From Smithella sp. SCADC (GTDB taxonomy: Bacteria; Desulfobacterota; Syntrophia; Syntrophales; Smithellaceae), in assembly GCA_000747625.2 (NCBI GenBank), contig JQDQ01000241.1, positions 1-48,178 of the forward strand: a stretch of DNA of 48,178 bases, given 5' to 3'. Both the position numbers and the translations under genes were made by a program. The notes beneath the pieces were generated by a model. It searched no databases. It was not told where the DNA came from and worked only from the letters and a program-made list of their open reading frames with translations. Each line of letters opens with the position of its first letter. The first letter of the stretch is position 1. This document shows positions 15,918-48,178 of this stretch, piece after piece.

Positions 15918-15938
15918 TTACATTCCTTATTCCTTGTT

Positions 15939-16055: not shown

Positions 16056-16128
16056 CATCTTCTTGGGTTATAATTTATTCTTCGTCGCATGCAACGGGAA
16101 TATAACACATAGAGATTAAAACTGACCT

Positions 16129-18741: not shown

Positions 18742-19010
18742 AAATCAATCCTTTATATCAACTTAATTTTGATGCCTTTGTAAAACGTTCCCCAACCTAT
18801 CGTTATGTGCGTGTCCCCCGCCGGCGGGGGATTAAGGGGGTGGAATAGAAACGTATTACTGGTTTTTAAACCCGTTAAAGCGCAGCTAAAGCTACGCACT
18901 ACATGCTTATCTTCATCCACCTCCGTCACTTCGTGACACCTCCGCCAGCGGAGGATATGAAATGACGCTTTTTCCCATTGTAACGCAGTCTCATCGCGGG
19001 AATGACAGAA
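18742..19010. repeat. Mosaic of short intergenic repeats inside the aromatic operon
   Basis: This 269-bp gap between aroK and aroC holds no gene. It contains the perfect palindrome CCCCCGCCGGCGGGGG (18815-18830), a CGCAGCTAAAGCTACGCAC unit, GTCACTTCGTGAC, and CCTCCGCCAGCGGAGG, all typical of dispersed foldback repeats. Every other junction in this operon is an overlap or very short, so the gap looks like an insertion of repeats into a once continuous unit. It could terminate or process the transcript. Confidence 0.6.
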
Positions 19011-24534: not shown

Positions 24535-24551
24535 ATATTTACTCCGTTATT

Positions 24552-25562
24552 TTAATGTTTCATTACCGCGGCAATCGCTCTTAATTCATCCATTAGTTGA
24601 TAAAACTTTTCCGGTTTCAATGACTGCGCTCCATCGGATACGGCTTTTTCCGGTTCCGGGTGAACTTCCACAATAAGACCATCGGCGCCAACAGCAACCG
24701 CGGCACGGGACAGGGGAATTACATATTCCCAATGACCGGCAGCATGGCTGGGATCGACAATAACCGGTAAATGCGTTAAATTTTTTAACACCGGAACAGC
24801 GCTTAGATCAAGAGTGTTTCTCGTGGCCGTTTCAAACGTTCTAATGCCGCGTTCGCAAAGAACCACATGAGGATTACCCGACGAAAGGATATATTCCGCC
24901 GACATCAGCAGCTCTTCGATGGTGGTCATCATGCCTCTTTTTAAAAGTACCGGCTTTTTCGAACGGCCGACTTCTTTGAGCAGGGCAAAATTCTGGACAT
25001 TACGCGCACCGATTTGCAGCATGTCGGCATAAGATTCCACAAGATCAACATCAGCGGGATTGACCACTTCCGTGACCGTCGGTAGATTTGTGCGCACGCT
25101 AACCTGATTTAATACCTTTAAGCCTTCTTTCTCCATACCCTGGAAGCTGTATGGAGAAGTGCGCGGTTTGAAGGCGCCGCCTCTAAGAATCTGGGCGCCG
25201 CCTTTTTTGGCAATATAGGCGCTTTCTAATAATTGCTCTTCGCTCTCAATGGCACAGGGGCCGGCTATTACAACGAAGTCCGGACCGCCGATTTTAATTG
25301 AACCTACCGAAACCACAGTATTGCCTTCGTGCGATTCGCGACTCGCCAGCTTGTACGGTTTTAAAATCGGCATGGTTTTTTCTACCCCCGGTAAAGACTC
25401 CGCGTACTTAAGGATCCCTTTATCACGATTGTCACCGACTACCCCGATAATTGTCCGTTCAACACCGATTGAAGGATGCGCTTTATATCCTACAGATTCA
25501 ATCCAGCGAAGCACATCTTCAATTTGCTTTTCTGTAGCCTGACTTTTCATTACAATGATCAT
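24552..25562 (-). CDS. aroF: DAHP synthase, type I-beta with N-terminal ferredoxin-like domain
   Basis: The 336-residue protein has an N-terminal ACT-like/ferredoxin-like regulatory domain (about 1-70, [18 protein letters not shown]) followed by the (beta/alpha)8 catalytic domain: [55 protein letters not shown] and [10 protein letters not shown]. It condenses PEP with erythrose-4-phosphate, the committing step of the pathway. The N-terminal domain in homologues of this layout confers Tyr/Phe feedback. The ATG is preceded by AGGAGGGGG. It is the first enzyme of the operon and lies directly behind the attenuator. Confidence 0.97.
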
Positions 25563-34323: not shown

Positions 34324-34795
34324 ATAATTTGAATACAAATAATTTGACAGCGAGTACTTTAAACTGTTTTGTTATTTAGAACTAAAATTTTTGTTTAATC
34401 TTTGTTTCTTAAATCTTCGATAAAATCATGGTCTTCAAGGTTTTGAAGTATAAGGAGTATGATTTTGAGTGTCAAGGAATATAAACTATTTTATAGAACA
34501 CTTTAGATTGAGGCCATGTAAATTTAACGGCATAATTGCTTAAGATTTCATTGCCATTAACGGTTTGAGGAATTATTTTAAAAAAACGTAAACTTCTAAT
34601 TCTTGTCTGGAAAAAACAGAAAAAATGTTGAAATCTATGATTAATTATGCAAATACTTTCAACAACTTTTATTTATTATTGTCAGTTACTTCTTTGTTGC
34701 TGGATTGAGGATAAAGAAAAATTGCATTTGACAGTCAGTTACACGAATGTCCCTGAATACACACGGAAAGGATAGACAGCTCATTGAGTGGATGT
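34324..34795. other. AT-rich divergent promoter region of the glycan operon
   Basis: About 470 bases separate the radical SAM gene from the glycosyltransferase. I see no gene. Two exact direct repeats GTCAGTTAC lie at 34681-34689 and 34734-34742, 53 bases apart (about five helical turns). TTGACA at 34728-34733 abuts the second, without a good -10 at normal spacing. The layout would suit an activator or repressor pair, but this is weak. Confidence 0.4.
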
Positions 34796-35734
34796 ATGAG
34801 AGATAAAGTCGAACTAAGTGTCGTTATCCCCGTGTATCAAGCTGAGGCATGTCTTCAAGAACTTTATAAACGCCTTACCGAATCGCTGCGTAGAATTGGC
34901 CATGATTATGAAATCATCCTTGTGGAAGATTGCAGCAGAGATAATTCGTGGGACATTATAGAAGCAATATGCAATAGTGATTCTAAAGTTAAGGGAATAA
35001 AACTCAGCCGGAATTTCGGACAGCACTTTGCCATTACTGCTGGGCTCAATTATGTAAAAGGAGAATGGACAATAGTGATGGATTGTGATTTGCAGGATCG
35101 TCCTGACGAAATACCGAATCTTTACAAAAAAGCCCAGGAAGGTCGGGATATTGTATATGCAAGAAGAGTTGAGCGACAGGATAAATTATTCAAACGTCTT
35201 TCTTCTAAGGTTTTTCATTTAATTTACGATTATTTGAGTGGATTAAAAACTGATCCGAATATCGCCAATTTTGGTATTTATCACCATAAAGTAATATGTG
35301 AATACAATCGAATGAAAGAAGTTGCTCGTTCTTTTCCTTCGTTGGTTAACTATTTAGGTTTTAAAACCTGTGTCATTGATGTCCGTCATTCCGAACGTTT
35401 CGAGGGGAAAAGCTCTTATTCGTTAAATAAGTTAATAAAATTGAGCACTGATGTAATTTTGTCAAACAGCAACAAACCTCTTAAACTTACCGTTAAGTTA
35501 GGTTTTTTCATTTCCCTGTTATCTTTTTTGTTAGCTTTGTACAACGTTTTTGCCCGTTTTGCAGGAATTATTAAATTGGAGGGATTTACAACAACCATTT
35601 TTTCCATTTGGTTCGTTGGAGGATTGATATTGCTTGTATTGGGTATCGTTGGTCTATACATTAGTAAGATATTCGATCAAGTAAAAGAAAGACAACTGTT
35701 TATAATTTCAAATGAAATTAATGTTGAAAAATGA
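34796..35734 (+). CDS. Family 2 glycosyltransferase, polyprenyl-phosphate type (DPM1/ArnC-like)
   Basis: The GT-A domain (about 1-220) begins LSVVIPVYQAE and has the nucleotide-sugar/metal site DCDLQD at 96-101 and the DPM-type RxxR region. Two C-terminal helices (about 230-255 and 268-290) anchor it. Homologues load a sugar from a nucleotide donor onto undecaprenyl phosphate for transfer outside the cytoplasm. ATG 34796 gives the usual N-terminus; TTG 34784 is four codons earlier. It overlaps the GNAT gene by 4 bases and is the first gene of the operon. The downstream flippase-like protein and the sugar genes fit lipid-linked glycan synthesis. Confidence 0.9.
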   Translation: MRDKVELSVVIPVYQAEACLQELYKRLTESLRRIGHDYEIILVEDCSRDNSWDIIEAICNSDSKVKGIKLSRNFGQHFAITAGLNYVKGEWTIVMDCDLQDRPDEIPNLYKKAQEGRDIVYARRVERQDKLFKRLSSKVFHLIYDYLSGLKTDPNIANFGIYHHKVICEYNRMKEVARSFPSLVNYLGFKTCVIDVRHSERFEGKSSYSLNKLIKLSTDVILSNSNKPLKLTVKLGFFISLLSFLLALYNVFARFAGIIKLEGFTTTIFSIWFVGGLILLVLGIVGLYISKIFDQVKERQLFIISNEINVEK

Positions 35735-36459
35735 AAATTACGGATGCCTATTGGGAAAAAAGAAACCTCGGAATAACCTGCACAGAAATAATCATAGAAA
35801 ATGGGGATCAACTATCTCATTTAGAAGAGATTAATGATGTTCTGGAATGCGTGGAATATGTGGTTGTAAAAGTTCCATCTGCCAGATTTGAAATGAATAA
35901 TTATTTGACTCAAAAAAGATTTGTATTTATTGAAGGAAGTATTAACTTATATTTAGATCTGAAAGACGCGGTACTGACAACCTTGCAACAAAGGTTGAAT
36001 GGTGTTGTTACTTATGCTGAAATGGATGAGGTTGATCTAAGTCAGCTCTATTATGAAATTGAGCGGGGAATGTTTAAATCAGACCGAATATTGTTAGATG
36101 ACTTCTTTACGGAAAAACAAGCAGCGGCACGTTACATAAACTGGATAAAAGATGAGTTAGCTAAATCAACTCAAGCTTATAAAATGGTGTATAAAGACGA
36201 CCCTATAGGATTCTTTACATTTAGAGAAGTAGAGAAAAATATTTTTTACCCTTTTTTAGCGGGAATGTATAAAAAGTATGCAAGTTCGGGACTTGGATTT
36301 GAAACCGTACGCAAACCAATAGAAGAGGCAATAAAGCGTGGTGGACATACAATCCATACCTATATTTCGACCAACAATACGGCAGTATTTCGGGTTCATA
36401 TTCAACAAGGGTTTTCTGTACACGAAATGCAATACGTATTTGTCAAACACAATAAATAA
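35731..36459 (+). CDS. GNAT-family N-acyltransferase (WecD-like layout)
   Basis: The 242-residue protein has an N-terminal half resembling WecD-like dTDP-fucosamine acetyltransferases (AYWEKRNLGITCTEI at the start). The C-terminal GNAT core (about 145-242) has DPIGFFTFREVEKN, YASSGLGFETVRKPIEEA, the acyl-CoA loop, and IHTYISTNNTAVFRVHIQQGF. It probably acylates an amino sugar. Followed at once by an acyl carrier protein gene, its donor could be an acyl-ACP rather than acetyl-CoA. The 4-amino-sugar aminotransferase at 45023 could supply the acceptor. Overlaps the glycosyltransferase by 4 bases. Confidence 0.8.
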   Translation: MKITDAYWEKRNLGITCTEIIIENGDQLSHLEEINDVLECVEYVVVKVPSARFEMNNYLTQKRFVFIEGSINLYLDLKDAVLTTLQQRLNGVVTYAEMDEVDLSQLYYEIERGMFKSDRILLDDFFTEKQAAARYINWIKDELAKSTQAYKMVYKDDPIGFFTFREVEKNIFYPFLAGMYKKYASSGLGFETVRKPIEEAIKRGGHTIHTYISTNNTAVFRVHIQQGFSVHEMQYVFVKHNK

Positions 36460-36469
36460 TTATAACAGA

Positions 36470-36706
36470 ATGAGTAATTTAATAAAATACAACGAGGCGT
36501 TTATTAATAGTTTTCAAATTACTGAGGATCAACTGGCAAACCTAACGTATCAGTCAGTGCAAGGTTGGGACTCGGTGGGACACATGGCCCTCATTGCAGC
36601 GTTGGAAGAAAGTTTTGATATCATGATGGATACTGATGATATTGTAGATTTTTCATCTTATGAAAAGGGTAAAGCAATTTTAAAGAAGTACAATGTTACC
36701 ATTTAA
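36470..36706 (+). CDS. Acyl carrier protein
   Basis: The 78-residue acidic protein carries the 4'-phosphopantetheine attachment motif in GWDSVGHM with S35. I chose ATG 36470, ten bases after the GNAT stop, because the longer frame from 36338 would run through the GNAT gene. It has the size and helix pattern of stand-alone carriers in glycan or natural-product operons, and is not the housekeeping AcpP (which has the ELGADSLD motif). The last 14 bases overlap the SDR start. It probably holds an acyl group made or used by the ligase, SDR and LuxC/LuxE proteins. Confidence 0.88.
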   Translation: MSNLIKYNEAFINSFQITEDQLANLTYQSVQGWDSVGHMALIAALEESFDIMMDTDDIVDFSSYEKGKAILKKYNVTI

Positions 36707-37445
36707 GTTATTGCAAAATAAAACAGTCCTTATAACAGGCAGCAATCGTGGTATTGGAAAGGTTGCTGTTGAAGTATTTGCAATGAACGGGGCATCTGTT
36801 TGGGCTTGCGCACGGAAAGAAACACCAGAAATTGAATATTTTTTAAACAATATAGCCGCTAAATATGGTGTAAACGTCAGGAAGCTGTATTTTGACTTGA
36901 CAAATGAAATTGAAATAAGGGAATCGCTTAAAACGCTTGTTACCGAAAAATGTAAAATAGATGTTCTGGTAAATAATGCCGGTATTGCTCATGGTGGTTT
37001 TTTACAAATGACTCCTATAAGCAAAATTAAAGAAGTATTTGAAATTAACTTTTTCTCTCAACTCTTGATTATTCAATACGTTTCTAAATTAATGATGAAA
37101 CAAAAAAGCGGCAGCATTGTTAATATGGCATCAATTGTCGGTTTAGATGGTTATCCTGGATACACGGCCTATGGATCGAGTAAAGCAGCATTGATATATG
37201 CGACAAAAACTTTAGCCAGAGAACTTGCTCCATATAATGTTAGAATAAATGCCATTGCTCCAGGATTGACAGAAACAGATATGGCAATGCAAATGGAGGG
37301 AAAAGCAAAAGACAAAATGGTGAACGATAGTGCAATGAAGCGATTAGCAAAACCAGAAGAAATTGCCAATATGGCTCTATTCCTAGCCTCTGACTTGTCA
37401 TCGTTCGTCAATGGACAGGTGATGAGGGTCGACGGCGGAATGTAA
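36693..37445 (+). CDS. Short-chain dehydrogenase/reductase (FabG-like)
   Basis: The 250-residue protein has the NAD(P) motif TGSNRGIG (15-22), NNAG (94-97), and the catalytic S147, Y160 and K164 (YxxxK). It has the length of FabG and ends in a typical DGGM tail. Position directly behind the acyl carrier protein suggests that it reduces a 3-oxoacyl-ACP or a keto group on a sugar/acyl product. Which one cannot be told. It overlaps the ACP gene by 14 bases and is followed by the transketolase genes after 13. Confidence 0.9.
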   Translation: MLPFKLLQNKTVLITGSNRGIGKVAVEVFAMNGASVWACARKETPEIEYFLNNIAAKYGVNVRKLYFDLTNEIEIRESLKTLVTEKCKIDVLVNNAGIAHGGFLQMTPISKIKEVFEINFFSQLLIIQYVSKLMMKQKSGSIVNMASIVGLDGYPGYTAYGSSKAALIYATKTLARELAPYNVRINAIAPGLTETDMAMQMEGKAKDKMVNDSAMKRLAKPEEIANMALFLASDLSSFVNGQVMRVDGGM

Positions 37446-37458
37446 CCTGGATTCAGAC

Positions 37459-38274
37459 ATGAATAAAAAAAAAGAATTACAGATTAATTCGCTTGCTGCA
37501 AAGCTGCGTAACAAATCATTAGAAATGGCTTTCAAAGCCGGAAAACATGGTGCACATCTGGGAGGTGGACTATCCTTGGTTGAAGTGTTTGCTACTTTAT
37601 ATGGTGGAGTTATTTCTATTGATGCAAATAATCCAACTGAAGAAAACCATGATCGAGTTATTGTTAGCAAAGGACATTGTGTACTTTCTTACTTTTCAGT
37701 TTTGAATGAATTTGGGTTTTTGAACGATGAAGAATTAGCCAGCTTTGAAACAAACGGATCCATGTTGCATGGTCATTCCACGCGCGATGTGAAAAGAGGT
37801 ATCGAGTTTTCTGGCGGGAGTTTAGGTTTAGGGTTAAGTTATGCTATTGGCGTTGCTTTAGCCGGCAAATTAAACAATCGTTCATACCGGGTATATGCCA
37901 TCATAGGCGATGGTGAATGTAATGAAGGTATTATATGGGAAGCATTTATGTCGGCTGCGCATTTTAATCTTGATAATTTGACAGTGATTATCGATCATAA
38001 CAAACTTCAGTACGACGGAGATGTTACAAAAATCATGAATATGGGAAATCTAAAAGCTAAATTAAACGCTTTTGGGTTTTACACAATAGAAGTGGATGGT
38101 CATAACATTTGCCAACTAATTGAAGCATTCCAAAATAGAATTTCTGGTAAACCCCATGCAATAGTAGCTCATACGGTGAAAGGCAAAGGCGTATCATTTA
38201 TGGAAAATAAGAAAGAATGGCATCACGCTGTTCTTTCCAGCGAGCAGTTCAATCTTGCAATTTCAGAACAGTAA
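37459..38274 (+). CDS. Transketolase, N-terminal (TPP-binding) subunit
   Basis: The 271-residue protein is the N-terminal half of a split transketolase: KGHCVLSYFS (71-80) with the conserved His, HGHSTRD, and the TPP motif GDGECNEG (150-157) ending in N181 (DHNKLQ). A whole transketolase is about 660 residues; here the pyrimidine and pyrophosphate domains are on separate genes, as in many archaea and some bacterial operons. Location inside a glycan operon suggests a specialised two-carbon transfer, not the pentose phosphate pathway. Confidence 0.93.
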   Translation: MNKKKELQINSLAAKLRNKSLEMAFKAGKHGAHLGGGLSLVEVFATLYGGVISIDANNPTEENHDRVIVSKGHCVLSYFSVLNEFGFLNDEELASFETNGSMLHGHSTRDVKRGIEFSGGSLGLGLSYAIGVALAGKLNNRSYRVYAIIGDGECNEGIIWEAFMSAAHFNLDNLTVIIDHNKLQYDGDVTKIMNMGNLKAKLNAFGFYTIEVDGHNICQLIEAFQNRISGKPHAIVAHTVKGKGVSFMENKKEWHHAVLSSEQFNLAISEQ

Positions 38275-38296
38275 ATTAAAAACAATAGGGAGTATT

Positions 38297-39301
38297 TTGC
38301 TTACATTCAATTCAACAAACTTTAGAATATGGTCAAAACTTGGGCAACGAGGTTCCTTTTTCGGTATTGCAGTTTTTGAAGTTGTTGAACAGTTTCATAA
38401 TGTTATGATTCTAACTGCCGATCTGGCTTATCTTTCGGGATTAGAAAGATTTATAAACAAACACCCCGACAAATTCTTGAACATTGGTATAGCTGAGCAA
38501 AACATGCTTGGCATAAGTAGTGGATTAGCCCAAGAAGGGAAGATAGTATTTGCAACTACTTATGCATCATTTATATGTATGCGCAGTTGTGAACAATTGC
38601 GCCACTACCTGGGTTACATGAAAAGTAATGTAAAAATTGTTGGCACAGGTGCCGGGTTGGTAATGACATTTTCGGGTAATACTCATTATGCCATAGAAGA
38701 CTTAGCTATTGTCAGAGCAATCCCTAACATAACCATTTTGTCTCCAGCCGATGCCACCGAGGCTGTCAAAGTAGCATTGGCAGCAGCGGAATTCAATGGA
38801 CCGATTTACATTCGTTTGACTGGTGGATTGAATAATCCGATCGTATATAAAGAAGATTATAACTTTGAAATAGGCAAAGCAATAACTATTACCACCGAAG
38901 GTGATATTACTATTTTTGCCACTGGAACAATGGTTCATAATTCGTTGGAAGCAGCAAAAATCCTTAAAGAAAAAGGAATGCAAGCACGTGTTGTAAACAT
39001 ACATACAATTAAACCTATTGATACAGACAGCATCGATTATGCAAATGAATGCTCGAAATTGCTGGTTTCCATAGAAGAACACAGTACAATAGGCGGTCTA
39101 GGTGGCACAATAGCAGAGTTTCTTAGTTCTCAGCCTAATCATACACCCCTGTTACGACTTGGTATTGCCGATCAATTCCGTCATGCTGGTGATTATAATT
39201 ATTTGCTGGAGCAAAATAGATTGTTGCCTGAGCAAATTGCCCAAGATATTGAAAAGAAGTATGTCACTCTAAATAATAGAGAACCCGGCACATTATGTTG
39301 A
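38297..39301 (+). CDS. Transketolase, C-terminal subunit
   Basis: This is the partner of the preceding gene. It contains the catalytic Glu in NIGIAEQNMLGISSGLA and the SPADATEAVKVAL segment, and a full C-terminal domain (VNIHTIKPIDTDSI, EEHSTIGGLGG). The frame is open from TTG 38255, which overlaps the previous gene by 20 bases; TTG 38297 has GGGAG four bases upstream and removes the overlap, so I prefer it. The two subunits should form an alpha2beta2 TPP enzyme that transfers a glycolaldehyde unit to an aldehyde acceptor. The LuxC-like reductase in the same operon makes aldehydes. Confidence 0.9.
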   Translation: MLTFNSTNFRIWSKLGQRGSFFGIAVFEVVEQFHNVMILTADLAYLSGLERFINKHPDKFLNIGIAEQNMLGISSGLAQEGKIVFATTYASFICMRSCEQLRHYLGYMKSNVKIVGTGAGLVMTFSGNTHYAIEDLAIVRAIPNITILSPADATEAVKVALAAAEFNGPIYIRLTGGLNNPIVYKEDYNFEIGKAITITTEGDITIFATGTMVHNSLEAAKILKEKGMQARVVNIHTIKPIDTDSIDYANECSKLLVSIEEHSTIGGLGGTIAEFLSSQPNHTPLLRLGIADQFRHAGDYNYLLEQNRLLPEQIAQDIEKKYVTLNNREPGTLC

Positions 39302-40695
39302 TCAACAATTTCCTTTCTCCCAAAGATTCTATAGCCGCAATAACTTACGAAGGCGAACGCGTTAGTTATAACGATTTAGTTTCTTTTGCCTCGACCTTGT
39401 ACAATAAAATTAATCACCGGTGTTTAATTTTTTGTATGTGTCAAAACTCCATCGACTCTCTTGGCGGATATGTTTCTTTTTTAACAAATAAAGTGGTGCC
39501 ATTACTGCTTGATGCGTCAATGGATATTACCCTGTTACGAGACTTAATAAACCTATATAAACCGGAATATCTTTGGATCCAAACAAGTAGGACATGGGAA
39601 TTTCCCGATGAAGAAATTGTATTTGCTTCAAAACAATATAGTTTGATCAAACTACATTTCAATACGGGTTTTCAAATATTCGACGACCTGGCTCTACTAC
39701 TCACGACATCGGGCAGTACGGGAAGCCGTAAGGTAGTGCGCTTGAGTTATGACAACATACTGTCAAATGCGCAATCAATTGCACAGTATTTGTCTATAAC
39801 TGCTGATGAGCGTCCAATTACCTCCTTGCCAATGAATTACTCATTTGGTTTGTCGATTATTAACAGTCATTTACTACAGGGTGCGACATTACTCCTAACT
39901 TCTGGGTCTATCATGCAAAAGGAGTTTTGGAATTTACTTAAAACAGAAAAAGCAACGTCCCTGTCAGGTGTTCCTTATACGTACGAAATTTTAAAAAAGC
40001 TCCGTTTTCTCAGAATGGATTTGCCGTTCTTGACGACCATGACACAAGCCGGCGGTAAGCTCGATATTGATCTTAACAGGGAGTTTACGGAATATTGTCA
40101 ATCCGCCAATAAACGTTTTTTTGTCATGTATGGTCAAACAGAAGCTACCGCACGAATGAGTTATTTGCCTTGCGAACAAGCTCTGTTAAAATTGGGCAGT
40201 ATTGGCACAGCAATCCCTGGTGGAGAGTTTAGCCTGATAGATGAAAACGGTGCACCCATAACCGAATGTGACACGGTCGGCGAGTTAGTTTATCGAGGCA
40301 GAAATGTTTCACTGGGGTATGCCGAGTGTGGAGACGATCTGTGTAAAGGAGATGAAAATGCCGGTGTTTTGCTGACCGGTGATTTGGCAAAAAAAGACAG
40401 CGACAACTATTACTATATTGTAGGACGGAAAAAACGTTTCATCAAACTGTTTGGCAATAGAGTAAATCTTGATGACACAGAACGATTGCTTAAGGCTTTA
40501 GTTTTCGAATGTGCTTGTACGGGATCGGATGACAGAATGCTTGTTTACATCACCGAATCGGGCCTTGCGGATGAAGCAAGAAAATTCATCTCTATGAAAA
40601 CGGGAATAAATCAAAGCGCGTTTGTGGTAAAACAAATCGATTCCATACCTAGAAATTCATCAGGAAAAATAATTTATTCAAAACTGGATATTTAA
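39295..40695 (+). CDS. AMP-dependent acyl ligase (ANL superfamily)
   Basis: The 466-residue protein has the P-loop LLLTTSGSTGSRKVVRLS (about 135-152), YGQTEATARMSYLP (the A5 motif with YGQTE), the GRxxR-type hinge GRKKRFIKLFGNRV, and the catalytic Lys near the end (GKIIYSKLDI). It lacks about 50 residues compared with typical acyl-CoA synthetases. It should adenylate a carboxylic acid and pass it to CoA or, given its neighbours, to the acyl carrier protein. It overlaps the transketolase gene by 7 bases and precedes the LuxE-like gene by 2. Confidence 0.9.
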   Translation: MLINNFLSPKDSIAAITYEGERVSYNDLVSFASTLYNKINHRCLIFCMCQNSIDSLGGYVSFLTNKVVPLLLDASMDITLLRDLINLYKPEYLWIQTSRTWEFPDEEIVFASKQYSLIKLHFNTGFQIFDDLALLLTTSGSTGSRKVVRLSYDNILSNAQSIAQYLSITADERPITSLPMNYSFGLSIINSHLLQGATLLLTSGSIMQKEFWNLLKTEKATSLSGVPYTYEILKKLRFLRMDLPFLTTMTQAGGKLDIDLNREFTEYCQSANKRFFVMYGQTEATARMSYLPCEQALLKLGSIGTAIPGGEFSLIDENGAPITECDTVGELVYRGRNVSLGYAECGDDLCKGDENAGVLLTGDLAKKDSDNYYYIVGRKKRFIKLFGNRVNLDDTERLLKALVFECACTGSDDRMLVYITESGLADEARKFISMKTGINQSAFVVKQIDSIPRNSSGKIIYSKLDI

Positions 40696-40697
40696 AA

Positions 40698-41777
40698 ATG
40701 GAGATATCAGAAATTCTGGACATACCACCATATTCTTTGAATAAAGTCGATAAAGAACAGATTTTAAGTCCTTACCTGACGAACTTGTCGCGTCATCATT
40801 ACAAGCATTGCACTCCTTTCAGGAAAATGATGGATAGCGTTGGCTTTGATACGCAAAAAGAATATCATTATGCTGATTTACCTTTTCTTCCAGTTCGTTT
40901 ATTCAAGATGTTTGATTTATACAGCGTTCCGCAAAACGAGATTATAAAAACAATGATCTCATCAGGAACTTCGGGACAGGCTGTTTCCCGTATTTTTCTT
41001 GACCGGGATACTTCGGCAGCACAAACTAAAACGCTCACCCAAATTGTATCGTCATTTATAGGTACACAACGATTGCCGATGATGATTATTGATAGCGAGA
41101 GCATTATCAAAGACCGGAATCTGTTTTCGGCTCGTGGCGCGGGAATATTAGGATTTTCGATATTCGGTTCAAAACGAATGTATGCTTTGAATGAGCAAAT
41201 GCAATTGAACATTGAACAACTTCAGGGTTTTACCGAACAATACAAAGAAAAAAGAATTTTCATGTTCGGTTTTACGTTCATGATTTACCAGCATTTCTAT
41301 AAAGAATTGGCCCGGAGTAGTATAAAGCTTGATTTATCGAATGCCGTTTTGATTCATGGCGGAGGTTGGAAGAAATTGATATCCGAAGCTGTAACCCCTG
41401 ATGTTTTCAGAAAGAAATTAAACGATGTTTGCAGATTGAATCAGGTTCACGATTACTATGGTATGGTGGAACAAACTGGAACTATTTACATGGAATGTGA
41501 ATATGGACACCTGCATGCTCCTGCTTTTTCGGACGTTATTATTCGTCGAGCTCATGATTTTTCGATAGCCGATGCAGGCGAAAAAGGCATTATTCAAGTG
41601 CTTTCGGTATTGCCTAAGAGCTATCCGGGACATTCGCTTCTAACCGAAGACGCAGGCGTTCTGCTGGGTGAAGACAACTGCGCCTGCGGACGATTGGGTA
41701 AATACTTTAAAATTGCAGGACGACTTAAGAATGCAGAAATAAGAGGCTGTGGCGATACATATGCGGAAAAGTTTTGA
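40698..41777 (+). CDS. LuxE-like acyl-protein synthetase
   Basis: The 359-residue protein has the family's ISSGTSGQ motif (87-94), the central FMFGFTFMIYQHFYKE block and a C-terminal HDYYGMVEQTGTIYMECEYGH segment. In luminous bacteria LuxE activates a fatty acid with ATP and passes the acyl group to LuxC. Here it lies between a second ATP-dependent ligase and a LuxC-like gene. The C-terminus (DTYAEKF) is complete. No luciferase genes are near. It overlaps the LuxC-like gene by 17 or 29 bases depending on that gene's start. Confidence 0.88.
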   Translation: MEISEILDIPPYSLNKVDKEQILSPYLTNLSRHHYKHCTPFRKMMDSVGFDTQKEYHYADLPFLPVRLFKMFDLYSVPQNEIIKTMISSGTSGQAVSRIFLDRDTSAAQTKTLTQIVSSFIGTQRLPMMIIDSESIIKDRNLFSARGAGILGFSIFGSKRMYALNEQMQLNIEQLQGFTEQYKEKRIFMFGFTFMIYQHFYKELARSSIKLDLSNAVLIHGGGWKKLISEAVTPDVFRKKLNDVCRLNQVHDYYGMVEQTGTIYMECEYGHLHAPAFSDVIIRRAHDFSIADAGEKGIIQVLSVLPKSYPGHSLLTEDAGVLLGEDNCACGRLGKYFKIAGRLKNAEIRGCGDTYAEKF

Positions 41778-42981
41778 TGACATAATATTATTATTTCCCA
41801 ACACAATATGTATTGAGGAACTAGAAAAAATACCGGCAACCCAACCATTTTCCAATGATGTCGTTGAATTTTTAAATGCTCTGTCTCAAGAACTCAGCAA
41901 AGATCCCAAAATTCGGAATTATCCCGATGTGGCAACCTTTGCTTTCTTTTGCCGCAAAGCTAATATTCTGCAAATAAAAAAACGATATGTTAGTGAAGAA
42001 ACCATTCGGTTGGGACGCGGCATTGTATTTCATGTTACGCCATCAAACGTGCCGGTCAATTTCGCATACTCGCTGTTGTGTGGCATCCTGTCGGGCAATG
42101 TAAATATAGTCAGAGTTCCGTCAAAAGATTTTGAACAGGTCACTATAATCTGCAATGCCATTACTAGGATTGCCAGCAATACTGTTTACCAAAATTGTGC
42201 CAACCGAATAGTCATAGTGAAATATGACAGAAACAGTTCGGCAACCTCATTATTTTCTTCATTTTGTGATGTCCGTGTTATTTGGGGAGGTGATGAAACG
42301 ATTGCACAAATCAGAAAAAGCAGCATTCCCGCCCGATCTTTTGATGTAACATTCGCCGATCGTTATTCGCTATGCATAATAAATGCTGATCAATACATTA
42401 AGGAACAAAATCATGAAGCCGTAGCTTTAGGATTTTACAATGACACGTATTTATTTGATCAAAACGCATGTACCTCGCCACATTTAGTAGTCTGGCTGGG
42501 TACAAAAGAAATTGTTTATAAGGCAAAAAAAGTTTTTTGGAATAAATTACATAATATTGTAAAACAAAAATATGGCCCTATACAACCAATTATCGTAGTT
42601 GATAAACTTACGGCTCTTTATAATCAAGCTGTAAACTCTGACGGTGTTCATAAAACCACCTCTAACGACAATCTTTTGTGGCTTGTTGATATTGATATAT
42701 TATCTCCTCAAATAGAAGACTTTCGCTGTTCGAGTGGATATTTTTCGGAATATCATGCGAACTCGTTATTGGAAGTAGCTACCATAATCAATCGTAAATA
42801 TCAAACTTTGGCTTATTATGGTTTCAATAAAATGGAACTATCAAATTTTGTTAAAAACAACAACCTGCCTGGAATTGACCGAATCGTCCCCATTGGAAGA
42901 ACAACAGATTTTTCTGTTATCTGGGATGGTTTTGATTTAATCAGAACATTGACTAGGTGTTGCAACATAATTGCGAAATAA
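41761..42981 (+). CDS. LuxC-like acyl-CoA/acyl-protein reductase
   Basis: From ATG 41761 (a GTG at 41749 would add four residues and lies only two bases after an AGAGG) the protein has 406 residues. It shows GRGIVFHVTPSNVPVNFAYSL, the NADPH-region LSGNVNIVRVPSKDFEQV, and the catalytic Cys in FDQNACTSPHLVVW (C241 in the 410-residue numbering). It reduces an enzyme-bound acyl group to an aldehyde with NADPH. With the adjacent LuxE-like protein it should form a fatty acid reductase. The resulting aldehyde might be the acceptor of the split transketolase, which is inference. Confidence 0.9.
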   Translation: MRKSFDDIILLFPNTICIEELEKIPATQPFSNDVVEFLNALSQELSKDPKIRNYPDVATFAFFCRKANILQIKKRYVSEETIRLGRGIVFHVTPSNVPVNFAYSLLCGILSGNVNIVRVPSKDFEQVTIICNAITRIASNTVYQNCANRIVIVKYDRNSSATSLFSSFCDVRVIWGGDETIAQIRKSSIPARSFDVTFADRYSLCIINADQYIKEQNHEAVALGFYNDTYLFDQNACTSPHLVVWLGTKEIVYKAKKVFWNKLHNIVKQKYGPIQPIIVVDKLTALYNQAVNSDGVHKTTSNDNLLWLVDIDILSPQIEDFRCSSGYFSEYHANSLLEVATIINRKYQTLAYYGFNKMELSNFVKNNNLPGIDRIVPIGRTTDFSVIWDGFDLIRTLTRCCNIIAK

Positions 42982-43019
42982 ATAAGCAAGTCAAGGAAAG
43001 TTGGAAAAAAGGTTTGATT

Positions 43020-43997
43020 GTGAGAAGTTCTCGTCTTATGAAACATCTTTCGCAGAAGATCAAGTATAAAAAACTTTTAAGCATGACCGTAAGTGCAGTC
43101 ATCTTTTTCCTTTGTGCATATTATGTCATCAACAATTTTCAGTGGAGTGCTGTTTTTCAACTTCTGAAACAGGTGGATTTAAAATTGTTTTTGGGAGCGA
43201 GCGCAGGAACGATAATATTTTATTGGTTGATTCGAACCATGCGCTGGTCTGTTCTTTTGAAGGCTGCTGGCATTCATGTCGATTTTTACCGTCTGTATCT
43301 GGTAGGAGTTATATCAATGGCCTTTGCCATTGTTACACCTTTTCAGTCCGGTGAGGCCGTAAAGGTCGAATTGTTGAAAAAGATTGGCGCCTTGGACAGA
43401 ATTCCCGGTTACGGTATATTTATGACGGAGAGGATTCTCGATTTAATTATCGTTTTGCTGATGGCATTAATCTGTTTGTTATTCGGTGTTGTAAAATATC
43501 TGGACAGGTGGACAATGTTTGCCGCAGTAGCGCTGATTTTGATTTGTATTACTGTTTTTTTTCTGATAATCCGGCGTACATCACCGGGCAACGCCGTGGG
43601 ACGTTTTTTTCAACCATTTAATCAATGCGTGAAAAACGGTAGGGTTCTGACAATAGTGGTTTCCCTGACAATCGTGAGTTGGCTTATTATTATTCTCGGT
43701 TGGTACGCTAGTTTGCGCAGTATTGCCATTTTAATTAATTTTCCGGAAATGGTCGCACTGACTACCATTACCACCTTGATCAGCATTTTGAGTTTGATCC
43801 CCGGCGCTCTTGGCATAAGTGAGGTCAGTATTTCCTCTTTTCTTGTTTATTTCCAGCAGGATATTCCTCTTGCTCAGACGGGTGCTTTGATAATTAGGCT
43901 TTATGGTGTTATGGCTTTAATCTTAGGATTTATTCACCTTCTCCCATTTTGGAAGTTGATCCGTGCCGGGAAACAAATGCCTGCTAACGTTGATTGA
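43020..43997 (+). CDS. Flippase-like membrane protein (YbhN / LPG-synthase transmembrane family)
   Basis: A GTG at 43020 has AAGG seven bases upstream and lies clear of the previous stop, so I prefer it to the GTG at 42957. The protein has about eight helices (the first near LLSMTVSAVIFFLCAYYVI), and family motifs such as FQSGEAVKVELLKKIG, ILDLIIVLLMA, and the LSLIPGALGISEVSISSFL segment. The family is proposed to move lipid-linked sugars or lysyl-lipids across the membrane. As the last gene of the operon with a polyprenyl-phosphate glycosyltransferase, it is a plausible flippase for the product. Function is inferred from family and context. Confidence 0.82.
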   Translation: MRSSRLMKHLSQKIKYKKLLSMTVSAVIFFLCAYYVINNFQWSAVFQLLKQVDLKLFLGASAGTIIFYWLIRTMRWSVLLKAAGIHVDFYRLYLVGVISMAFAIVTPFQSGEAVKVELLKKIGALDRIPGYGIFMTERILDLIIVLLMALICLLFGVVKYLDRWTMFAAVALILICITVFFLIIRRTSPGNAVGRFFQPFNQCVKNGRVLTIVVSLTIVSWLIIILGWYASLRSIAILINFPEMVALTTITTLISILSLIPGALGISEVSISSFLVYFQQDIPLAQTGALIIRLYGVMALILGFIHLLPFWKLIRAGKQMPANVD

Positions 43998-44024
43998 TAA
44001 AATGTATAGAATATGAAACTCACA

Positions 44025-44115
44025 TGACGGAGTTCCGTCACAAAGGGGGATGAAAATGTTGTCCAAGAAGAAGGACCACCATAAATCAATAAGTTACGAG
44101 CGCATTTTCAGATGA
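44025..44115 (+). other. Hairpin plus 21-codon micro-ORF before the methyltransferase
   Basis: The 143-base gap between the flippase-like gene and the methyltransferase holds the dyad TGACGGA-GT-TCCGTCA (44025-44040) and a short frame, 44050-44115, beginning MKMLSKKKDHHKSISYERIF directly behind AAAGGGGG. It is basic and too short for a confident call. It could be a leader, a remnant gene end or chance. Confidence 0.3.
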
Positions 44116-44141
44116 AATTTTGTTAATAATGAGGTTTATTG

Positions 44142-45017
44142 ATGAAGGTATGCCCCGGTTGTAACAGTGAATTGCTTAATGATTCATCATGCGGATGTTG
44201 TGGCTTTACCGCGAAAATGATTGATGGATTCTTAGCATTTGCTCCTGGACTTGCCACGAATAACGATAATTTTGACGCTACCGCTCACGCAAGGTTATTT
44301 CAACAGGAAAGCAACTGTTTTTGGTTTCCGGAACGAAACAAATTAATAATCTGGGCAATGAATAAATATTTTCCCAACACGGAATCGTTGTTGGAGATAG
44401 GCTGTGGAACGGGTTATGTTCTTAGCGGATTGTCTTCAGCCTTTCCCGAAAAGAAGTATACCGGAGCCGATATATTTACAAGCGGTCTTAACTTTGCAGC
44501 CTCAAGAGTGCCGCAGGCAAATTTTATACAAATGGATGCGCGCCACATCCCCTTCAATAATGAATTCGATGTAGTTGGTGCCTTCGATATGATCGAGCAT
44601 GTAGAAGAAGATGAGCAGGTGCTAAGCCAGATGTATAAGGCTGTGCGGCATGGAGGGGGAATAATCGCCACCGTACCCCAGCATAAGTGGTTATGGAGTG
44701 CGGTAGATGATTACGGATTTCATAAAAGAAGATATACCCGCGCTATGTTTGGCGAAAAAATAACAAAGAGTGGATTTGAAGTTGTTAAGATCACATCATT
44801 CATGAGCTTTTTGTTACCGATTATTGTCTTACGGAGGGGGCGTTACCTGTTTTACTCAAAGGAAACAATAGAAGAAACTACCAAGGAAGAGATAAAGATC
44901 AATCCTGTTTTGAATTATTTATTTAGCTTAATATGTATGGTTGAGACGCGAATGATTAAAGCGGGAGTTCCTTTTCCCGCCGGTGGTTCGCTATTATGTA
45001 TAGCAAAGAAAAGGTAG
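44142..45017 (+). CDS. Class I SAM methyltransferase with N-terminal zinc ribbon
   Basis: I chose ATG 44142 because GAGG lies seven bases upstream (TTG 44139 is the other option). The protein starts MKVCPGCNSELL.. with paired Cys (C4, C7, C17, C20), a small zinc-ribbon. The Rossmann methyltransferase follows, with motif I LLEIGCGTGYVLS (84-96), GADIFTSGL and FDVVGAFDMIEHVEEDE. Its C-terminal helical tail ends PFPAGGSLLCIAKKR. Such proteins are common beside glycan genes and often methylate sugars or lipid carriers. The substrate is unknown. The aminotransferase starts 5 bases after its stop. Confidence 0.88.
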   Translation: MKVCPGCNSELLNDSSCGCCGFTAKMIDGFLAFAPGLATNNDNFDATAHARLFQQESNCFWFPERNKLIIWAMNKYFPNTESLLEIGCGTGYVLSGLSSAFPEKKYTGADIFTSGLNFAASRVPQANFIQMDARHIPFNNEFDVVGAFDMIEHVEEDEQVLSQMYKAVRHGGGIIATVPQHKWLWSAVDDYGFHKRRYTRAMFGEKITKSGFEVVKITSFMSFLLPIIVLRRGRYLFYSKETIEETTKEEIKINPVLNYLFSLICMVETRMIKAGVPFPAGGSLLCIAKKR

Positions 45018-45022
45018 GATAT

Positions 45023-46174
45023 ATGAAGAATAAAATAAAGATTCCCTTCAATAAGCCATTTATTGCCGGCAAAGAACTCTTCTACATTGCCCAGGCAGTT
45101 ATTGAAAATCACCATACCGCCGGTGATGGTCCCTTCACGAAAAAATGCCAGGCATGGCTGGAGGAACACCTGGGATGCCGTAAAGTGTTACTGACACATT
45201 CCTGCACGGCGGCTTTGGAAATGGCGGCAATTTTGGCGAATATACAGCCCGGTGATGAAATTATCATGCCTTCATATACATTTGTTTCAACGGCCAACGC
45301 TTTTGCGTTACGGGGAGGAGTGCCGGTGTTTATAGATATTCGCCCCGACACTCTTAACATCAATGAAAATCTAATTGAAAAAGCCATCACGCCTCACACT
45401 AAAGCCATCCTGCCGGTTCATTACGCCGGTGTCTCCTGTGAAATGGATGCTATCATGGATATAGCAATGAGACATAATCTTTTTGTGATTGAAGATGCCG
45501 CGCAAGGAATCATGTCCACATACAAAGGAAATCAACTGGGAACAATTGGACATTTCGGTGCTTGTTCATTTCATGAAACGAAAAACATCATTTCGGGAGA
45601 GGGTGGAGCGCTGCTTATTAATGACGACAAATTTATTGAGCGAGCCGAAATTATACGCGAAAAAGGGACCAATCGTAGTCAATTTTTCCGCGGACAAGTA
45701 GACAAATACACATGGGTTGATATCGGATCTTCATATCTTCCCAGTGATATTATCGCCGCATTTCTCTATGCCCAGATGGAAAACGCCGATCAGATTATAG
45801 CCAAACGGAATTTGATTTATGATCTTTATATGAAAGGCTTGCAGCCACTGGCTGATAAAGGCTGCCTCCAACTTCCGTTCATTCTTGATGATTGTTGCAG
45901 CAATGGTCACATGTTCTATATCATAACCCGATCTTTGGAAGAAAGAACAAAACTTACTGAGTTCTTAAAGGAACGCGGTATTATGGCTGTGTTTCATTAC
46001 GTACCCCTCCACAGTTCCCCTGCGGGAAAGTTGTATGGCCGGGCGTATGGAACTTTAGATGTTACCAAGAGAGTAAGCGACTGCCTATTGCGCCTGCCAC
46101 TTTACTATGAAATGACGAACAACGACGTACATTCTGTAACGAAGTCTATCAAGGAGTTTTATGAACATTCCTGA
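45023..46174 (+). CDS. Sugar aminotransferase, DegT/DnrJ/EryC1/StrS family (WecE-like)
   Basis: From ATG 45023 (AGGTAGG upstream) the protein has 383 residues and begins MKNKIKIPFNKPFI, the typical WecE opening. PLP residues are clear: D158 in EDAAQG, catalytic K187 in SFHETKNIISGEGGAL, and THSCTAALEMA near 58-68. WecE converts dTDP-4-keto-6-deoxyglucose to dTDP-4-amino-4,6-dideoxygalactose. The WecD-like GNAT at 35731 could acylate the new amino group. No rmlA/rmlB genes are in the window, so the substrate must come from elsewhere. The longer frame start at 44996 overlaps the methyltransferase and is less likely. Confidence 0.92.
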   Translation: MKNKIKIPFNKPFIAGKELFYIAQAVIENHHTAGDGPFTKKCQAWLEEHLGCRKVLLTHSCTAALEMAAILANIQPGDEIIMPSYTFVSTANAFALRGGVPVFIDIRPDTLNINENLIEKAITPHTKAILPVHYAGVSCEMDAIMDIAMRHNLFVIEDAAQGIMSTYKGNQLGTIGHFGACSFHETKNIISGEGGALLINDDKFIERAEIIREKGTNRSQFFRGQVDKYTWVDIGSSYLPSDIIAAFLYAQMENADQIIAKRNLIYDLYMKGLQPLADKGCLQLPFILDDCCSNGHMFYIITRSLEERTKLTEFLKERGIMAVFHYVPLHSSPAGKLYGRAYGTLDVTKRVSDCLLRLPLYYEMTNNDVHSVTKSIKEFYEHS

Positions 46175-46279
46175 GTGGAACCAATCTGATATGATAGTGT
46201 ATATTTAATCGCCAGATTAATAATGACAAATCCGGCAGCACTTTGATATTTATTCATTAATAAAAAAGGGATGATGCTA

Positions 46280-48178
46280 ATGAGCGAAAGTAAAGAAGAC
46301 GCAGACATAACCATTCAATCAGTCACTGACCAAATTAATACTCAGAATAATCGTCCATCAATGTTACCTACTTTCTCCGCCTTTTCTGAAAAACTAGCTT
46401 CTTTCCGTTATCTGAAATGGATAATAATAATACTCCTGCCTGTCTTAATTCTGCTGAGAAATCCCGTGGAACAATTAGATACCGACCTATGGTGGCAAAT
46501 GGCGCTTGGTAAATATTATATTACTCACCATACCCTTATCGCGGATCATTCGATCTTTTCCTGGACACCGACAGACCCGACCTGGATTTATAACACTTGC
46601 CTGGGAAGTATCGTTTTTTATCTGGGTTACAGCCTCATGGGAGGGTTTGGCTTATGGATCATTCAGTGGCTCATATTCATTGGCGTTTTTGTTTCATTTT
46701 ATCTTTTTCTCCGCCTGATTGGTCAGAGACTCGATATAACAAGCGTTACCATCATTGCCGCGATTGGTATGGTCTGTTCCCTCGCCTGCAGCATGTACAA
46801 GCCCGAATTATTTTCAGCCCTTTTGTTTTGCTGGACGGTATTTATCTTTTTTTATGTCAAGTTGACCCGCCAAACACTTACTTTTTATATTTATCCCTTT
46901 CTTTTTGCCCTCTGGGTCAATTTACACGGCGCCTTCATCTTTGGACTCATCTTTCTAGTTCTAGTCTTTACAGGTGAACTTTTAAACAGAATTTTCTTTT
47001 CCAAAGAATCATTTACCACCAAAGATTTGACCCATCTGGGAATCGTGTGTGTTCTTTCTTTTGCCGCCACTGTGCTGAATCCTTATGGCATTGATTATCT
47101 GTTGAGCACATATAATGGACTGACTTCCGATGCTTATATGAGCCTAATCAACAAATATATCCTGGCCTATTTGAGTCTATGGGCATACTTGAAGGATATC
47201 AATGTTTCCTCTTTCAGATTGGGACAAACTGCCTGGATCATGACCATAATGATGTTTTTTTGGGGCTGCCTTTTCCTCTATGAATTAATCAAAAAGAGAT
47301 CCTGCGATTTTGCATTGCTTTTCGTCAATGTCGCCTTATACTGGAAAGGCATGGAAACAAGCCGGGCATCTTACTTCTTTCCTCTCGCCTTTTTTTTCTC
47401 ATTCTTTTACCTGCTTCATCGGTTAAAATTAAAAAACGTTCTCGGCAAGGCAACCATCCTATCGTTGCTTGTTTTCTTTTTCTTTTTTGCAAGCACCTCT
47501 TATTTAACTGTCAGATACGGTGCTGGAAGCAAATGGTTCGGCATGGGCATTGATAGCTTTGTCCCTGTAAAGGAAGTGGCTTTCCTGAAAAAATATCATC
47601 CGGAAGGACCGATCTTTAATGATTATGTTATCGGCGGTTACCTGATGTGGGATCTCTATCCTGACTACAAGGTTTTTATAGATCCCCGTTGCAGCCCATT
47701 CAGGAAACAGACGTTCCCCGACTACATGGCCTTTACCAACGTCCGTGTAACCGGCAAAGATATTCAGCGTTTCAGAGAAAAGTATCCGTTCAAGATTGCG
47801 ATACTCCATTATCGGCAACTCATTTTGATCTATGATTTCCTGCAAGCGGGAGGAGAGTGGAGACTTTTGTACTTTGGCCAGAACGCTGCTATCCTGATGC
47901 ATAAATCATTACTTCCCACCATCTCGCCGGAAATGGGCTCTGTTGATCTTAGTCCTGTACGCTTCAGGAAGGTTACAAATCCACAAGTTCTTCTTAATAT
48001 TTTTCATTTTTATATTAATGTGAACCCTAACGCCGCTCGATTTATCTACGATATCTATAAAATTAACGTCAGCGATTATTACAAATTTAAAAAAGAGCAC
48101 CTGCAAGGAATGGATCTTGCGATTCGGTTGAAGGAGAGTGAAGCTAAAGCCAGGAAAAAAGGTTCTACGTTAGTGACT
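46280..48178 (+). CDS. Large multi-pass membrane protein with C-terminal soluble domain (runs off the window)
   Basis: An open frame of 633 codons runs to the last base without a stop. ATG 46280 has GGG nine bases upstream; two upstream in-frame ATGs (46271, 46274) sit directly on the ribosome site. The N-terminal region holds an initial helix and the motif LDTDLWWQMALGKYY..HSIFSWTPTDPTWIYN, found in large glycosyltransferase-like membrane proteins. Roughly nine to ten helices follow (about 110-415), then a soluble domain with EGPIFNDYVIGGYLMWDLYPDYKVFIDPR. I do not recognise a specific activity; a lipid-linked-sugar transferase is one possibility. It is the intact version of the deleted paralogue at 25952. 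Confidence 0.88.
   Translation, partial: MSESKEDADITIQSVTDQINTQNNRPSMLPTFSAFSEKLASFRYLKWIIIILLPVLILLRNPVEQLDTDLWWQMALGKYYITHHTLIADHSIFSWTPTDPTWIYNTCLGSIVFYLGYSLMGGFGLWIIQWLIFIGVFVSFYLFLRLIGQRLDITSVTIIAAIGMVCSLACSMYKPELFSALLFCWTVFIFFYVKLTRQTLTFYIYPFLFALWVNLHGAFIFGLIFLVLVFTGELLNRIFFSKESFTTKDLTHLGIVCVLSFAATVLNPYGIDYLLSTYNGLTSDAYMSLINKYILAYLSLWAYLKDINVSSFRLGQTAWIMTIMMFFWGCLFLYELIKKRSCDFALLFVNVALYWKGMETSRASYFFPLAFFFSFFYLLHRLKLKNVLGKATILSLLVFFFFFASTSYLTVRYGAGSKWFGMGIDSFVPVKEVAFLKKYHPEGPIFNDYVIGGYLMWDLYPDYKVFIDPRCSPFRKQTFPDYMAFTNVRVTGKDIQRFREKYPFKIAILHYRQLILIYDFLQAGGEWRLLYFGQNAAILMHKSLLPTISPEMGSVDLSPVRFRKVTNPQVLLNIFHFYINVNPNAARFIYDIYKINVSDYYKFKKEHLQGMDLAIRLKESEAKARKKGSTLVT

Follow-up and report, generated by a model that had tools for sequence, protein, structure and literature searches.

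In the Group II flagella glycosylation islands of Aeromonas, genes for an acyl carrier protein (ACP), a 3-oxoacyl-ACP reductase and an AMP-ligase lie together with luxE and luxC (PMC7874193), and one kind of flagellin glycosylation island in Enterobacteriaceae carries LuxE, LuxC, Acp, FabG and CaiC, its product being left open as a possible liposugar (PMC4875605). Vibrio cholerae O1, with its tetronate genes rfbKLMNO (wbeKLMNO, VC0248-VC0252; PMC3441752), uses a carrier protein and a ligase for 2,4-dihydroxybutanoic acid, which ends on a 4-amino sugar (PMC12208996, PMC3441752). Here we describe a related cluster at positions 34796-48178 of contig JQDQ01000241.1 of Smithella sp. SCADC (genome size 3.19 Mb). 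The window analysed is this one whole contig of 48,178 nucleotides, and the cluster runs to its end. ACP, short-chain dehydrogenase/reductase (SDR), AMP-ligase, LuxE and LuxC genes are found in it together with both halves of a split transketolase, and on balance we favour the reading that the cluster makes an unusual N-acylated 4-amino-4,6-dideoxygalactose (Fuc4N) and delivers it to a glycan, by way of LuxE/LuxC, the transketolase, the SDR, and the ligase, ACP and GNAT acyltransferase.

The base formed by ACP, SDR, ligase, LuxE and LuxC is already described, and what is new here is the addition of a transketolase and the exchange of modules. A preliminary description of the window, which knew of no described pathway with this combination, was in this respect too strong, since the five-gene base occurs in the flagellin islands. 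The Aeromonas islands resemble the window cassette in their ACP, reductase, AMP-ligase, LuxE and LuxC, as compared by gene names alone, but stand in a pseudaminic acid context, and the word transketolase occurs 0 times in the main text of PMC7874193; the Enterobacteriaceae islands have the same enzyme set, with no transketolase in the excerpt of PMC4875605. The V. cholerae system, compared through the literature, shares the carrier protein, the ligase and a 4-amino sugar, although its sugar is perosamine and that of the window would be Fuc4N. The tetronate-type gene set (ACP, AMP-ligase, LuxE, LuxC and an alcohol/keto reductase) is complete in the window, with an SDR as the reductase. We take V. 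cholerae rfbN to be LuxC/LuxE-like, and the tetronate genes presumably include no transketolase and have an alcohol dehydrogenase where the window has the SDR. The added transketolase argues for an acid longer than 2,4-dihydroxybutyryl in the window. In the open-licence literature, we found nothing on point that links transketolases to LuxE/LuxC, ACP, O-antigen or flagellin glycosylation.

Gene content and catalytic residues of the cluster

Ten open reading frames (ORFs) lie on the + strand between 34796 and 43997 and, with the starts as chosen, adjacent genes overlap or are at most 29 bases apart; the preliminary description had put the gaps at no more than about 40 bases. It had the cluster end at 43997, but genes for a methyltransferase, a WecE-type aminotransferase and a 636-aa ORF continue on the same strand. 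Its family guesses held: Pfam agrees with the expected family for 9 of the ten genes, 8 of them above the curated cut-off and the GNAT below it (21.3 against 25.4 bits, Acetyltransf_3). The ACP (36470..36706), for which Pfam and NCBIfam gave no match, is recognised by the conserved motif W-D-S-V-x-H-M (WDSVGHM in the window), which, including its Ser, is invariant in 6/6 ACPs when the protein is aligned to 5 cassette ACPs.

The LuxE-like acyl-protein synthetase (40698..41777; PF04443, 193.1 bits; solved LuxE 7xc6_E, E 4.4e-12) carries Cys351, which is invariant in 6/6 aligned sequences and aligns with the C-terminal Cys of 7xc6, while Cys241 of the LuxC-like acyl reductase (41749..42981, or possibly from the ATG at 41761; PF05893, 104.2 bits) is invariant in 7/7 aligned LuxCs. 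The cluster shares these two families and their Cys residues with LuxCDE bioluminescence; however, both proteins score far under the long-chain equivalog cut-offs (63.9 against 550 bits for LuxE, 48.3 against 750 for LuxC), and Pfam finds no luciferase (luxAB) in the genes typed from 34796 to 46174, in line with the earlier statement that this is not bioluminescence. We consider a small hydroxy acid a likelier substrate than a fatty one. The AMP-forming acid ligase (39295..40695; PF00501, 123.1 bits) shows TSGSTG and SSGK motifs, the SDR (36693..37445; PF13561, 204.7 bits) is FabG-like, and the translations of both, like that of the aminotransferase, carry what we take to be the usual motifs of their families.

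The DegT-family aminotransferase (44996..46174) is WecE, the dTDP-Fuc4N transaminase, by the curated equivalog cut-off (PRK11706, 622.5 against 375 bits), and so points to Fuc4N as the probable sugar of the cluster. The preliminary description had overlooked this gene, as well as the exchange of the transketolase for other carbon-joining enzymes and the altered transketolase substrate pocket. Together with the WecD-like GNAT (35731..36459) the aminotransferase recalls the WecE/WecD steps of the enterobacterial common antigen pathway (Fuc4N, Fuc4NAc), from which the window differs in that its GNAT falls far below the WecD equivalog cut-off (PRK10975, 46.4 against 219 bits) and sits beside an ACP cassette. 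A glycan outlet is offered by a GT2 glycosyltransferase (34796..35734; PF00535, 108.6 bits), whose best NCBIfam matches are PgfS (203.7 bits) and the ArnC type (195.6 bits), each under its cut-off, and by a flippase-like membrane protein (42957..43997, the true start possibly further downstream; PF03706, 116.3 bits; TIGR00374, 77.6 bits).

A contig of another phylum (L019, Marinilabiliales) has the order GNAT-ACP-SDR-TktN-TktC-ligase-LuxE-LuxC-GT2-methyltransferase-DegT, with identities to the window, from GNAT through DegT, of 56, 64, 64, 63, 70, 62, 66, 56, 62, 28 and 54%. Since a locus of another phylum holds this set, the gene arrangement is more than chance.

The substrate pocket of the cassette transketolase

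The two chains of the split transketolase are TktN (37459..38274; PF00456, 120.7 bits), which binds thiamine pyrophosphate (TPP), and TktC (38297..39301; PF02779 and PF02780), whose TTG start behind AGGG was picked from homologues. Their top PDB relatives are both chains of one split transketolase, that of Carboxydothermus (6yak, the N chain, and 6yaj), which likewise has two chains with TPP and catalytic residues. In an alignment of 46 cassette TktC and 46 TktN, numbered as in E. coli TktA, the catalytic Glu411 is present in 46/46 and His473 in 44/46 TktC, and Asn185, His26 and His261 each in 46/46 and Asp155 in 38/46 TktN. Hence the preliminary description's caution that the LuxC Cys and the transketolase TPP residues might not be functional is answered by Cys241, Glu411 and Asn185, which are present throughout the aligned sets.

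The pocket of TktC is altered: His461 and Asp469 are present in 0/46 and Arg520 in 1/46 (locus L063), and the TktC of the window has Glu411 without equivalents of these three. A realignment with more rows gives 0/47, 0/47 and, for Arg520, 3/47, a count that is affected by unsure gap placement near this residue. While 6yaj has the usual ATHxGLxxGEDGxSHQ stretch, cassette TktC lacks its His and Asp. We take His461, Asp469 and Arg520 to read the phosphate of the substrate in sugar-phosphate transketolases (EC 2.2.1.1), with the alpha-hydroxyl read at Asp469; as judged from the residues, their loss would suit an acceptor such as a semialdehyde with a CH2 next to the aldehyde. For comparison, ordinary split transketolases of the phylum of the window, Desulfobacterota (n=28), keep His461 in 27, Arg520 in 27 and Asp469 in 15, with L193 lacking all three, and those of Treponemataceae (n=28) keep His461 in 11, Asp469 in 14 and Arg520 in 20; a control set of 30 had held two cassette rows (L114, L115) and the Desulfobacterota set of 29 one (L170), all of which were moved. 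Single-residue losses are thus not unique to the cassette, and uniform loss is unique to cassette TktC.

Moreover, one clade (SH-aLRT 98) holds 47 of the 48 candidate cassette TktC, the outlier by the tree's warnings being L063. Across 395 Desulfobacterota genomes, the best TktC scores are 539 bits for the window, 447 for genome G568 and 343 for the next, so that only the window and G568, which by score both stand apart, appear to have the cassette type. Indeed, G568 carries ACP, ligase, GNAT, LuxE, LuxC, SDR, TktN and TktC together. Five ordinary split-transketolase loci show no Lux genes within the 11-14 kb read, and none of the split transketolases of G127 lies beside Lux genes.

Module exchange across bacteria and within Smithella

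A LuxE profile scan of GTDB contigs gave at least 539 confirmed relatives, the best 80 loci of which were analysed. They come from Bacteroidota, Bacillota, Spirochaetota, Pseudomonadota, Synergistota, Planctomycetota, Melainabacteria and Thermodesulfobacteriota, with many gut Bacteroidota and Lachnospiraceae among them, and common orders are ACP-SDR-TktN-TktC-ligase-LuxE-LuxC and SDR-TktN-TktC-ACP-ligase-LuxE-LuxC. When a Rhizobium plasmid is added (81 loci in all), 45 Tkt pairs are counted, and 43 of them have ACP, ligase, LuxE or LuxC on their own strand no more than 3 kb away, which bears out the co-occurrence of LuxC, LuxE, ACP and split transketolase that the preliminary description had proposed to look for. 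An SDR adjoins 32 of the 45 pairs, and matches to GNAT or hexapeptide acyltransferases are common in the loci. On that plasmid, from Rhizobium anhuiense (L013:5188-17371), TktN, TktC, ACP, ligase, DegT, LuxE, LuxC, SDR, FabZ and a GMC oxidoreductase lie near a TonB-dependent siderophore receptor.

At identity thresholds of 50% for the cassette NeuB and 45% for a thiamine enzyme, the best 80 loci have a split transketolase in 41, thiamine enzyme and NeuB in 10, NeuB in 4, thiamine enzyme in 1 and no module in 24, the last an upper bound since short or truncated contigs carry several of these loci (e.g. L017, L036, L050, L083). FabZ accompanies 8 of the 10 loci with thiamine enzyme and NeuB, and the 4 NeuB loci have an SDR. 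By these thresholds, none of the 80 joins a full Tkt pair with a thiamine enzyme or NeuB gene (Fisher p 3.8e-6, a nominal value because the loci are related). We regard the transketolase of L063 as a bystander, because it retains Arg520, is placed outside the cassette clade and is 5.3 kb away from LuxC; with it dropped, the transketolase count is 40/80 and p is 6.1e-6. The cassette NeuB shows 53-64% identity (100% in L078, the query's own contig), and weak matches of 30-39% (L026, L028, L035, L089, L094) were read as sugar nonulosonate synthases and left out. The thiamine enzyme and NeuB genes are adjacent in 9 of 10 loci, L035 being the exception. In L014, a second Smithella locus, NeuB aligns along its length with the sialic acid synthase 1xuu, and the nearest PDB relative of the thiamine enzyme is 8rph (371.5 bits, the next at 245.4), which is JanthE, a YerE-like carboligase (PMC12188165); the YerE-like ErwE uses 4-hydroxy-2-oxo acids as donors (PMC12247030).

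In a quick LuxE tree, in which 38 of 82 inner branches are weak, the rows group loosely by phylum and the module label is spread over the tree much as shuffling would spread it: the transketolase label changes 28 times (shuffled mean 28.7), at least 10 changes being forced by starred branches, and the thiamine enzyme and NeuB label 9 times, at least 6 forced. Unlike modules also occur within the well-supported pairs L028/L031, L032/L053 and L075/L076. This exchange of modules on a common ACP/ligase/LuxE/LuxC base supports an exchangeable lengthening step. Some loci look as if modules were repeated: L087:1-7195 carries SDR-TktN-TktC twice and LuxE-LuxC twice, two Tkt pairs are found in L058 and in L090 (L090:865-9776), and L060:2113-12248 is also among the loci with doubled Tkt and/or LuxE-LuxC pairs.

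In 30 of the 80 loci there is a thioesterase-type gene encoding about 235 aa, which frequently stands between those for ligase and LuxE (L111:9163-9876, L200:3517-4230); its product is an alpha/beta-hydrolase thioesterase (PF00975) in 21 and a metallo-beta-lactamase (MBL)-fold protein in 9, perhaps two unrelated families in one role. It resembles LuxD in role and ties LuxE/LuxC to the ACP; it is missing from the clusters of the window and L014. In Treponema, loci L106-L110 have ACP-(MBL-fold)-LuxE, mostly with LuxC, and no ligase or transketolase was found in them; an acetyl-CoA hydrolase/transferase-family gene was typed in L106. In a further Treponema locus, L113:2860-12363, LuxE and LuxC are fused into one protein of 827 aa and are accompanied by NeuB-like, ACP, AMP-ligase and iron alcohol dehydrogenase genes, a layout that presumably resembles that of the V. 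cholerae tetronate genes.

Within Smithella, L014 has the cluster of the window with FabZ-thiamine enzyme-NeuB in place of SDR-TktN-TktC. The identity between the two is 85% for WecE, 75% for the methyltransferase, 66% for the flippase, 60% for LuxE, 57% for ligase and LuxC, 48% for ACP, 46% for GT2 and 32% for GNAT, and thus drops from the sugar side towards the acyl side. The cassette is sporadic in the genus: among 59 relatives a strong LuxE match is seen in G003 alone, two others match at about 1e-4, and a LuxC fragment (99%) where one of its contigs ends shows that G006 has the cassette too. At G000:C244:14049-14525 there is a second match to the LuxC family, a weak one (26 bits) with a single TGA inside, which is perhaps an aldehyde-dehydrogenase relative. 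At E 1e-120, 14 of the 16 genomes of the genus have the WecE gene, and none of the 19 other relatives does. Of 13 Smithella WecE loci fetched, four had their genes typed. That of G007 (L158) has in its middle ATP-grasp, oxidoreductase, FkbM methyltransferase and class-II DAHP synthase; that of G008 (L162) has an FkbM methyltransferase, an SDR match and ORFs sized like the ATP-grasp and DAHP synthase of G007; that of G005 (L163) has a methyltransferase, an aldehyde dehydrogenase and ATP-grasp; and that of G016 (L164) has simply a GNAT. These genes stand where the window has the Lux cassette. We read the Smithella WecE locus as one polymorphic N-acylation locus on Fuc4N, several alleles of which bring their own carbon-joining enzyme.

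The class I methyltransferase gene (44139..45017; PF13649, 61.3 bits) comes after the flippase gene in several Smithella loci, and its product is perhaps a sugar-side enzyme. The last ORF (46271..48178, 636 aa, open at the contig end), with multiple transmembrane segments and no Pfam or NCBIfam match, is perhaps a GT-C-like transferase, which is a guess; ORFs of 420 aa (cut) to 660 aa that come after WecE in several Smithella loci are like it in position and size. On the - strand, a B12-binding radical SAM gene (32944-34338) adjoins the cluster, and relatives of it (96% and 83%), with two more such genes, stand next to the WecE locus in G007 and G008. Further away on the same strand is an aromatic amino acid run (14388-25562), from DAHP synthase to prephenate dehydrogenase, which includes a type I dehydroquinase-shikimate dehydrogenase fusion and adjoins SIR2, TANGO2 and histone-deacetylase-family genes.

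Proposed product, alternatives and meaning

In the pathway that we favour, LuxE would activate the carboxylate of a small, probably dicarboxylic acid, which LuxC would reduce to a semialdehyde. The split transketolase would then add a two-carbon ketol unit to this aldehyde, which would bear neither phosphate nor alpha-hydroxyl, the SDR would reduce the new ketone, and the AMP-ligase would load the remaining carboxylate on the ACP. From there the WecD-like GNAT may move the acyl group to the 4-amino group of the dTDP-Fuc4N supplied by WecE, before GT2 puts the sugar on what is probably polyprenyl phosphate and the flippase turns the lipid-linked sugar over. The mounted acyl group would be a polyhydroxy acid, and its lengthening step would be exchangeable: without a module a tetronate-type C4 acid would result, with the transketolase a polyhydroxy acid of six carbons, given a C4 starter, and with NeuB, with or without the YerE-like thiamine enzyme, other skeletons. 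From phosphoenolpyruvate and an aldehyde, NeuB would yield a 4-hydroxy-2-oxo acid, the type that ErwE uses as donor. The order from acid through ACP and aldehyde to ketol and glycan had been outlined in the preliminary description, and the families, the catalytic residues and the glycan outlet agree with it; a fatty substrate, also envisaged there, fits less well.

This pathway is supported by the 43 of 45 Tkt pairs near the cassette, by the TktC clade and residues, by G568 with its Lux cassette, by the WecE assignment, and by the Smithella swap, in which the sugar side is conserved and the GNAT is the most diverged. The published chemistry of an unlengthened cassette, in which 2,4-dihydroxybutanoic acid is borne on a carrier, supports it as well. 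Flagellin masses can also be compared with it. The flagellin of A. piscicola AH-3 carries, besides a pseudaminic derivative of 376.14 Da, an unassigned unit of 102 Da; we calculate 102.03 Da for dihydroxybutyryl and 376.15 Da for a pseudaminic residue with one acetyl replaced by dihydroxybutyryl. These masses suit a cassette without lengthening module that makes a C4 acid, although this is mass arithmetic and other compositions could fit. According to what is reported of the 2017 work of Kurniyati, the Treponema denticola flagellin glycan bears a 2-methoxy-4,5,6-trihydroxyhexanoyl group on a pseudaminic-type sugar, which is what a C4 hydroxy-semialdehyde would give after addition of a transketolase ketol, reduction and O-methylation. 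This structure computes to 450.185, and the mass given for the glycan is 450.2 Da (PMC9481697).

Several observations weigh against this pathway. Loss of His461 and Asp469 is seen elsewhere too, in Treponemataceae split transketolases and in L193 of Desulfobacterota, and cassette-type TktC is found by score in only 2 of 274 Treponemataceae genomes (G142, G246), which may tell against the T. denticola comparison. The missing residues also hold the usual phosphorylated donors, so that their loss would touch the donor as well as the acceptor, and Asp155 of the TPP loop is replaced by Asn (GNG for GDG) in 8 of 46 cassette TktN, e.g. that of L041. The exclusivity of modules would fail at a laxer NeuB threshold, because L026, L028 and L089 are transketolase loci, and L092 has a thiamine enzyme plus a 115-aa TktC match. 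Finally, the thioesterase-type gene could mean that an ACP-bound carboxyl gets reduced, contrary to the dicarboxylate idea.

This last point leads to an unlikely alternative, in which the acyl group leaves the ACP thioester, LuxE activates it anew and LuxC reduces it, so that the aldehyde arises at what was the thioester carbon, as happens in luxCDE; the product would then reach the sugar by some linkage other than an amide delivered from the ACP. The LuxD-like position of the thioesterase or MBL-fold gene in 30 of 80 loci speaks for it; however, the window and L014 lack such a gene, many of the loci match GNAT or hexapeptide acyltransferases, and the known analogue loads the finished acid. 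We give about as little credence to a transketolase that adds a two-carbon hydroxyacetyl branch to a keto sugar while LuxE/LuxC/ACP make an acyl group separately. Such a role was proposed, but not shown in vitro, for the split-gene transketolases of miharamycin and amipurimycin biosynthesis (PMC12247030). A sugar aminotransferase is present in the cluster, and YerE-like enzymes, relatives of the thiamine enzyme of the alternative module, do branch sugars. Against this, the transketolase accompanies ACP/ligase/LuxE/LuxC, while a DegT match is present in just 23 of 41 transketolase loci; the keto group of the sugar here is consumed by WecE; and the transketolase is swapped for NeuB, an enzyme that adds phosphoenolpyruvate to aldehydes. 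The genomic association argues instead for a LuxC-derived aldehyde as acceptor. Least probable of all, and in our view improbable, is a sphingoid-like amino diol, glycosylated later, for which LuxE/LuxC would reduce a fatty acyl group and the transketolase would give a long-chain dihydroxyketone for a pyridoxal phosphate enzyme. In chemical terms an aldehyde R-CHO plus ketol and amination equals the sphinganine head group, and the LuxE/LuxC of bioluminescence are long-chain specific, but the aminotransferase of the window is WecE by the curated cut-off, its LuxE and LuxC stay far below the long-chain cut-offs, and the nearest pathway with a named acid uses a C4 hydroxy acid.

Beyond the window, we tentatively suggest, with more doubt than confidence, that N-acylated Fuc4N is one case of a further way of building chains for glycans beside fatty-acid and polyketide synthesis, in which an aldehyde made by LuxE/LuxC is lengthened by an interchangeable carboligase (the transketolase, or NeuB with or without the YerE-like thiamine enzyme), in some loci perhaps repeatedly in view of the doubled modules of L087, L058 and L090, so that surface sugars would bear a combinatorially varied set of polyhydroxy N-acyl groups. 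If so, a C4 hydroxy starter lengthened by the transketolase would yield tetrahydroxyhexanoyl (C6H10O5, about 162.05 Da), which in mass spectrometry would be taken for a hexose, and the small question whether the 102 Da unit of AH-3 flagellin is dihydroxybutyryl becomes testable. Transketolases for non-phosphorylated aldehydes are a goal of enzyme engineering, and these loci would hold natural ones for aldehydes without phosphate. Furthermore, this would provide a reading for a widespread cassette, with its at least 539 LuxE relatives, and explain odd acyl groups on flagellins and capsules.

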